Shown here piece after piece: positions 51,342 through 52,598 of a stretch of DNA of 64,000 bases. The stretch comes from Lignipirellula cremea (GTDB taxonomy: Bacteria; Planctomycetota; Planctomycetia; Pirellulales; Pirellulaceae): positions 5,127,001 through 5,191,000 of the forward strand of contig NZ_CP036433.1 of NCBI RefSeq assembly GCF_007751035.1, given 5' to 3'. Numbering within the stretch: the first letter of the stretch is position 1; each line of letters opens with the position of its first letter. The position numbers were made by a program, and so were the translations under genes. Under the pieces are notes generated by a model. The model worked only from the letters and a program-made list of their open reading frames with translations. It was not told the origin of the DNA and searched no databases.

Positions 51342-52598
51342 TCAGGTGGCGGTGAGAATCACCGCGGTCGCCTGGCCGGTGTACGTTTGATTGAGAGCGA
51401 TCACCGCGCCCTGGGGATTCTTTTTGAGCTCGCCTGCGATCACCTTCACGGGGCAGGCCGGGTCTGGCGTTTCGTAATTGAGGGTGAACGGCGCTACGCC
51501 ATGGGCCAGGCCCAGCAGGCTGACAGCCATTTCCACCGCACCGCCGCCGGCGCCTAGATTGCCAAAGAAGCTTTTCGGAGCGGTTACGGGAGTATCGCCC
51601 AGCACATCGTGAATGGCCTGGGCTTCTACCAGATCTTCGTTGACGGTGCTGAGCCCGTGCGCGTTGACGTAGCCGATGTCGGACGCTTTCAGGCCGGCGT
51701 CTTCCAGGGCCAGGGCGATCGAACGCCGGATCGCTCCGCCAGCGGGTTCGCCGCCGGTTTGCTGGGTGCGGGCGAAGCCTTTGACTTGTGCGAGGATGTT
51801 GGCGCCGCGGTTCAGAGCGTGGTCGCGACTTTCCAGCACGATGGAGGCGGCGCCTTCGCCGATCACCATGCCGTCGCGATTGGCGTCAAAAGGGCGGCAA
51901 GCGCCGGTCGGGTCGTAGATACGATGCGACAGGTTCGCCATGCCTCGATACACCATCGGCGTGGGATTGGTCCGCTCGCCCGATCCACCGGCGATCATCA
52001 CATCGGCCCGACCGCGTTCAATAATGGCGGAGCACTCAATCAGCGCCAGCGAGCCGGAGACTTCGCTCAGCGTAATGGTGTTGCACGGGCCGCGGGCGTC
52101 GAACGCAATGCCGACGTGGCAGGCTGTCATGTTGGGCAGGTGTTTGAGCATCCATAGCGGATACAGGTCGCGCATGGCCGATTTGGCCCAGCGATCAAAG
52201 TGGAACTCACCGTCTTCCAGGCAATGGCGGTAGGTGTCTTCGAACTCTTCCAGCTCGCAGTAATACAGTTCGCCGCCAAAGACCACGCCCAGGCGATCGG
52301 GGTCGACGCCGCCTTTTTCAATCCCTGCGTCTTCCATTGCCAGGAATGCCGAGGAGTAGCCAAACTGGATCGGACGGCACATGACCTTGATCGCTTTTCG
52401 CGGCTTGACGTACTGCTTGCCGTCGAAGTCCTGGATCAGGCCGCCGATATCAAAGGCCCAGTCGCGACCGGGGAACATGCCGCGGCGGACAATGCCGCTG
52501 CGGCCTTCAGCCAAAGATTGCCAGAACGCCTGCTTGCCGATGCCAATCGGCGAAACCATCCCAACACCGGTGACTACCACTTCTCGCTTTTGCACCAT
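51342..52598 (-). CDS. Beta-ketoacyl synthase-family protein lacking the catalytic Cys
   Basis: 418 residues from ATG 52598 (MVQKREVVVTGVGMVSPIG), full KAS I/II length with thiolase fold. In the segment aligned to the FabF GPxxxIxTAC site it reads RGPCNTITLSEVSGSLA, so the nucleophilic Cys is replaced by Glu179. The first active-site His is kept (His314 in NAHGLST) but the second is Asn347 (FFGNLGAGGGA). Cys and one His loss means ordinary condensation is unlikely; the pattern recalls chain-length-factor or decarboxylating KS-Q proteins, in which Cys is replaced, usually by Gln. No ACP or partner KS gene is adjacent. Convergent with glgB. Confidence 0.9.
   Translation of the reverse strand: MVQKREVVVTGVGMVSPIGIGKQAFWQSLAEGRSGIVRRGMFPGRDWAFDIGGLIQDFDGKQYVKPRKAIKVMCRPIQFGYSSAFLAMEDAGIEKGGVDPDRLGVVFGGELYYCELEEFEDTYRHCLEDGEFHFDRWAKSAMRDLYPLWMLKHLPNMTACHVGIAFDARGPCNTITLSEVSGSLALIECSAIIERGRADVMIAGGSGERTNPTPMVYRGMANLSHRIYDPTGACRPFDANRDGMVIGEGAASIVLESRDHALNRGANILAQVKGFARTQQTGGEPAGGAIRRSIALALEDAGLKASDIGYVNAHGLSTVNEDLVEAQAIHDVLGDTPVTAPKSFFGNLGAGGGAVEMAVSLLGLAHGVAPFTLNYETPDPACPVKVIAGELKKNPQGAVIALNQTYTGQATAVILTAT

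Follow-up and report, generated by a model that had tools for sequence, protein, structure and literature searches.

What does a ketosynthase-like protein do once it has lost its catalytic cysteine, in a locus with no acyl-synthesis genes around it? The question is raised by a gene of Lignipirellula cremea located at 51342..52598 on the minus strand (ATG at 52598, stop codon at 51342-51344) of the window, by which we mean the whole 64-kb stretch of DNA that was analysed. Based on Pfam matches, alignment, a structural model, trees and gene linkage in other orders, we consider its 418-aa product to be, probably, a catalytically dead, chain-length-factor-like subunit (KSbeta) that pairs with a canonical ketosynthase (KSalpha) encoded elsewhere in the host genome (G000:C1:5369794-5371074).

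A ketosynthase fold without a working active site

The protein matches PF00109 (1e-33) and PF02801 (2e-19) in a Pfam profile search, and its AlphaFold2 model (pLDDT 92.1, pTM 0.91) superposes on FabF structures with a Z of ~60 and on the actinorhodin chain length factor (CLF; PDB 1tqy_B) with a Z of 57.9 and an rmsd of 1.7. The ketosynthase fold proposed in the first-pass annotation is thus well founded, while the NCBIfam fabF score of 276 lies far under the cut-off of 493.75. Alignment with solved FabF proteins, E. coli FabF included, and with the relatives described below also upheld the residue changes that had been read from the sequence. The catalytic Cys position is occupied by Glu179 (codon at 52062..52064, minus strand), which the model puts at the nucleophile elbow, in the opening turn of helix 178-194, and Asn347 (51558..51560, minus) stands in for the second catalytic His; the first catalytic His, His314 (51657..51659, minus), and the active-site Lys, Lys342 (51573..51575, minus), are kept. 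The gating Phe is replaced by Tyr406 and the FGFGG loop is gone, with residues 403-409 (51372..51392, minus) reading NQTYTGQ where KSalpha proteins have SFGFGGQ.

Of the Cys-His-His triad and gating Phe of a FabF / KAS II enzyme, the Cys, the second His and the gating Phe are therefore missing, and the protein also differs from KS-Q, which has Gln at the Cys position and both His, in carrying Glu179 and Asn347. The combined loss of Cys, gate and second His rules out ordinary condensation, in line with the earlier judgement that this is not a normal condensing enzyme. That judgement would be open to doubt if another cysteine took the place of the nucleophile. The candidate named in that context, the Cys of the RGPCN motif (residue 172), falls seven residues short of the nucleophile column, and nearly all relatives have Asn or Ser in its place; we rejected it as a substitute nucleophile.

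An acidic family conserved across Planctomycetia

Strong KSbeta relatives are present in all of the Planctomycetia genomes searched (118/118), mostly two per genome, which rules out a horizontal one-off. Three phylum-wide matches (L033, L036 and L037) are ordinary Cys-His-His ketosynthases and were left out of the KSbeta count. Across 70 aligned KSbeta rows, the Cys column holds Glu in 40, Asp in 27, Ser in 2 (in one genus) and Asn in 1, so that 67/70 are acidic; the first His is retained in 56/70, the Lys in 64/70, and the second-His column holds Asn in 48, His in 12 and other residues in the remainder. The gating loop is lost in the family. By contrast, Cys, both His, Lys and gating Phe are each found in 35/35 KSalpha rows. 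The position of Cys160 (52119-52121, minus) is Cys in 61/70 KSbeta rows and Ser in 8; most KSalpha proteins have Gly or Ala there, and FabF has Gly.

Whether homologues bearing the same Glu/Asn pair form a clade had been posed as a check. The family does make one clade, whereas the Glu/Asn bearers do not separate within it: because Asn and His alternate inside the acidic family, the pair is the commonest state of this larger family and not a clade of its own. Six sampled KSbeta pairs from close relatives gave dN/dS values of 0.05-0.08 (the window copy is without a close relative), and one KSalpha pair gave 0.046. The KSbeta values indicate strong purifying selection and exclude decay in the sampled lineages; with no stops among the matches listed, a decaying gene was ruled out for the family.

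The two subunits also differ at residues 147-156, where KSbeta reads PLWxLKYLPN, with a basic residue at position 152 in 70/70 rows, and KSalpha mostly reads RELEQEPN, with an acidic residue (E) there in 30/35. The window protein carries this signature as PLWMLKHLPNM (residues 147-157; 52128..52160, minus), the KSalpha counterpart resembling xxRELEQEPNM. The corresponding stretch of FabF lies at the dimer interface and bears a Phe that reaches into and lines the partner's acyl pocket. Taken together, the contrast between the subunits and the interface role in FabF hint at heterodimer specificity and pocket lining.

The likely partner ketosynthase and its gene cluster

Within the window the gene does stand by itself, being the sole PF00109 match, with no FabA-like or PP-binding match in the 64 kb and with neighbours (6-phosphogluconate dehydrogenase, a DHDPS family member, DUF1501, GlgB, PQQ beta-propellers and phosphoglucose isomerase) none of which is an acyl-synthesis gene. 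To this extent the initial description of a gene encoded alone is accurate; it does not hold genome-wide, as a likely partner ketosynthase and an ACP are found ~190 kb away. There, the host KSalpha gene forms part of a DH1-ACP-DH2-KSalpha row that contains no KSbeta. A second host KSbeta, also Glu/Asn, lies at G000:C1:5581895-5583172, ~400 kb from the window gene.

In other orders, the two ketosynthase genes adjoin each other, an arrangement that a single window does not reveal and that points to the genomic partner which the first-pass annotation had suggested looking for elsewhere. Using f-numbers as working labels for genome families, 49 f84-f88 genomes have KSbeta and KSalpha in the same orientation with KSbeta directly upstream, at a gap of 13-276 nt and in one case 729 nt (match-coordinate lists compared by hand). 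Every fetched f84-f88 locus (20/20) has the order ACP-DH2-KSbeta-KSalpha, usually with DH1 and often with KR upstream, the fullest form being DH1-(KR)-ACP-DH2-KSbeta-KSalpha. The identical ACP-DH2-KSbeta-KSalpha order recurs in four distant Planctomycetota (G055, G031, G127 and G142), and several other families likewise have KSbeta beside a canonical ketosynthase and ACP, unlike the window locus. Orthologues of the host KSalpha are co-conserved with KSbeta, occurring in 118/118 Planctomycetia genomes, and DH2 occurs in 59/59 genomes. Family f4 (G002 and G034) has KSalpha without a recognised KSbeta nearby, which could mean that certain lineages use KSalpha by itself. In the window's order the KSbeta gene has departed from the cluster and duplicated; in the host the DH1-ACP-DH2-KSalpha remainder still forms one row.

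The host DH2 (L045:8119-8664, equivalent to G000:C1:5369118-5369663), a FabA-like protein whose gene adjoins KSalpha, has lost its catalytic His (EYFAGY...E) and looks like a second degenerate component of the same system. The same His is lost in several relatives of the host's family, while others keep HFPG...E. Many f84-f88 genomes (L103-L105, L107, L108, L110, L112-L115, L117-L121) carry a GH3-like (acyl-adenylating) gene downstream of KSalpha, and its product may release or conjugate the acyl product; an alpha/beta-hydrolase gene is also found downstream of KSalpha in the f84-f88 loci examined, often between KSalpha and GH3. We did not regard GH3 as a fixed part of the cluster since, although frequent in f84-f88, it has no match in the host genome. 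This absence, together with a DH2 that lacks its catalytic His, means that the pathway may have changed in the host.

Ketosynthase matches also occur at two further host loci. A canonical ketosynthase (L267:5397-6692, G000:C1:5713396-5714691) sits on a long branch and groups with the base of the clade formed by KSalpha, with no ACP, DH or KSbeta recognised among its neighbours. Two ketosynthase matches, together with four or more ACP matches in tandem, make the 3806-aa open frame at G000:C1:419443-425433 suggestive of a multidomain PUFA-type synthase.

Origin of the two subunits

Relationships were inspected in a 128-row tree and in a careful 49-row tree under a mixture model. KSbeta forms one clade in both (support 99 with 128 rows, 100/99 with 49 rows), with the KSalpha clade as its sister; in the 49-row tree the two clades have 100/99 each. 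Four KSbeta-clade members from family f15 keep Cys-His-His and are positioned at the base of the clade. The f15 genomes (L055, L056, L057 and L058) have a tandem ketosynthase pair with Cys in both, and their DH2 is without the HFP motif. The Cys of the f15 KSbeta-clade member, encoded beside its ketosynthase, is likely the ancestral state. The best trees place planctomycete KSbeta and Streptomyces CLFs on separate branches, and they favour an origin independent of the actinomycete CLFs, although a joint clade has a p-AU of 0.032 with 49 rows under the mixture model but of 0.165 in the larger quick tree.

A broader reading would join these observations, and we put it forward as possible rather than probable. 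Planctomycetia would possess a core, class-wide second acyl synthase, with KSalpha and KSbeta derived from a duplication inside Planctomycetota, independently of actinomycete KS/CLF. One KSalpha would be common to two unlinked KSbeta paralogues in the window's order and in family f2, so that a change of dead subunit would alter what the single active subunit makes.

A probable chain-length-factor-like role and its alternatives

KS/CLF type II systems are organised in the same way, with a dead ketosynthase next to an active one and in the company of ACP, KR and DH. Most likely, KSbeta and the host's canonical KSalpha would form a heterodimer, in which KSalpha would perform the Claisen condensation on ACP. 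KSbeta would physically complete the dimer and, from its side of the interface, line the distal end of the acyl pocket, thereby setting, and limiting, chain length, while Glu179 would plug its own active site. The host DH1-ACP-DH2-KSalpha cluster would then be part of a second, fatty-acid/polyene-like synthase. The clusters have KR and two DH, and the genes examined included no recognisable enoyl reductase, so our guess is that the product is an unsaturated or polyene-type acyl chain.

Counting against the pairing are the lack of linkage between KSbeta and KSalpha in the window's order, where a single close KSalpha would have to serve two KSbeta, as well as family f4 and the host pathway changes noted above. 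The dispersal and duplication of KSbeta genes there, and an accD-like gene near one paralogue, could be taken to mean that the protein was freed from KSalpha and became a homodimer acting by itself as a scaffold or regulator that binds acyl chains or ACP. We find this improbable, given that its relatives share an operon with KSalpha, that KSalpha is also present in every genome, and that the KSbeta signature at residues 147-156 is unaltered after dispersal.

Slightly less probable again is a KS-Q-like decarboxylase, with Glu179 standing in for Gln and malonyl-ACP being decarboxylated to an acetyl starter. Decarboxylation would require both His, yet KSbeta has Asn in place of the second in 48/70 rows and lacks the first in 14/70, and the gating Phe loop is missing as well. 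In its favour, the window protein keeps His314 and Lys342, and Glu179 is similar in position and chemistry to the Gln of KS-Q and of the ActI CLF, which is cited for starter decarboxylation (PMC6638757). We give the least credence, and very little, to a repurposed catalyst in which Glu179 would serve as the nucleophile or base of a novel acyl transfer: the acidic residue is nearly invariant and selection is strong, but Asp and Glu interchange, Ser replaces them in one genus, and both His columns vary, so that there is no constant catalytic set. A chain-length-factor-like KSbeta is accordingly the reading that we compare with known systems below.

Relation to known systems

The Glu/Asn combination had been called unusual, but it is not without precedent. 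Rhodopirellula baltica RB4527 (NP_866153), with Glu163, His298, Lys328 and Asn333, and RB3714 (NP_865682), with Asp163, His298 and His333, were tabulated in 2009 (PMC2649909 Table 2) and treated as divergent FabF paralogues with deviant active sites and unknown substrate, discussed for ladderane synthesis. These proteins of a related planctomycete show the same residue pattern as the window family and resemble its two KSbeta paralogues, an orthology judged from residues only; that study presented no partner, KSbeta reading or class-wide survey for them (PMC2649909). We set the ladderane link aside, as published descriptions confine these lipids to anammox bacteria (PMC2649909, PMC4790861).

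Acidic residues have also been reported in CLFs. A 2019 paper noted that the Cys position is Gln in the ActI CLF but Asp in AntE (PMC6638757). AntE, the CLF of AntD/AntE, thus resembles KSbeta in its acidic residue, but it belongs to a maker of aromatic polyketides, and the comparison is by description, outside our trees (PMC6638757). CLFs of actinomycete type II PKS share with KSbeta the fold, the loss of Cys, the retained Lys and a gene beside a canonical ketosynthase; they differ in forming a separate branch of our best trees and, for Streptomyces CLFs in the same alignment, in having Gln at the Cys column instead of Glu/Asp, and the window's order, in contrast, has its KSbeta and KSalpha genes apart from each other. 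Highly reducing KS/CLF type II systems (PMC10698177), such as those for ishigamide (KS/CLF 6kxd) and aryl polyenes (ApeO/ApeC; ApeC is ~half-size, PMC8358021), combine KS-CLF with KR, DH and ACP like the planctomycete set, but they are secondary-metabolite clusters, whereas the planctomycete set is found throughout a whole bacterial class.

The open literature that we searched held no description of the planctomycete KSalpha/KSbeta core system, its class-wide spread, or its dispersal and duplication. Within that literature, the Glu/Asn residues and acidic CLFs were already known; what is new is the interpretation as KSbeta, the conservation across the class and the split and duplicated gene layout.

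Overall, what looked like a strange lone enzyme would become one of two halves of a conserved system for building acyl chains, which all the Planctomycetia genomes searched possess. An evolutionary series is visible, from Cys in both halves, through one half that is dead and acidic, to a dead half that is relocated and duplicated, and this series bears on how an enzyme turns into a pseudo-enzyme partner. The system also permits a direct test of whether exchange of the dead subunit alters chain length.
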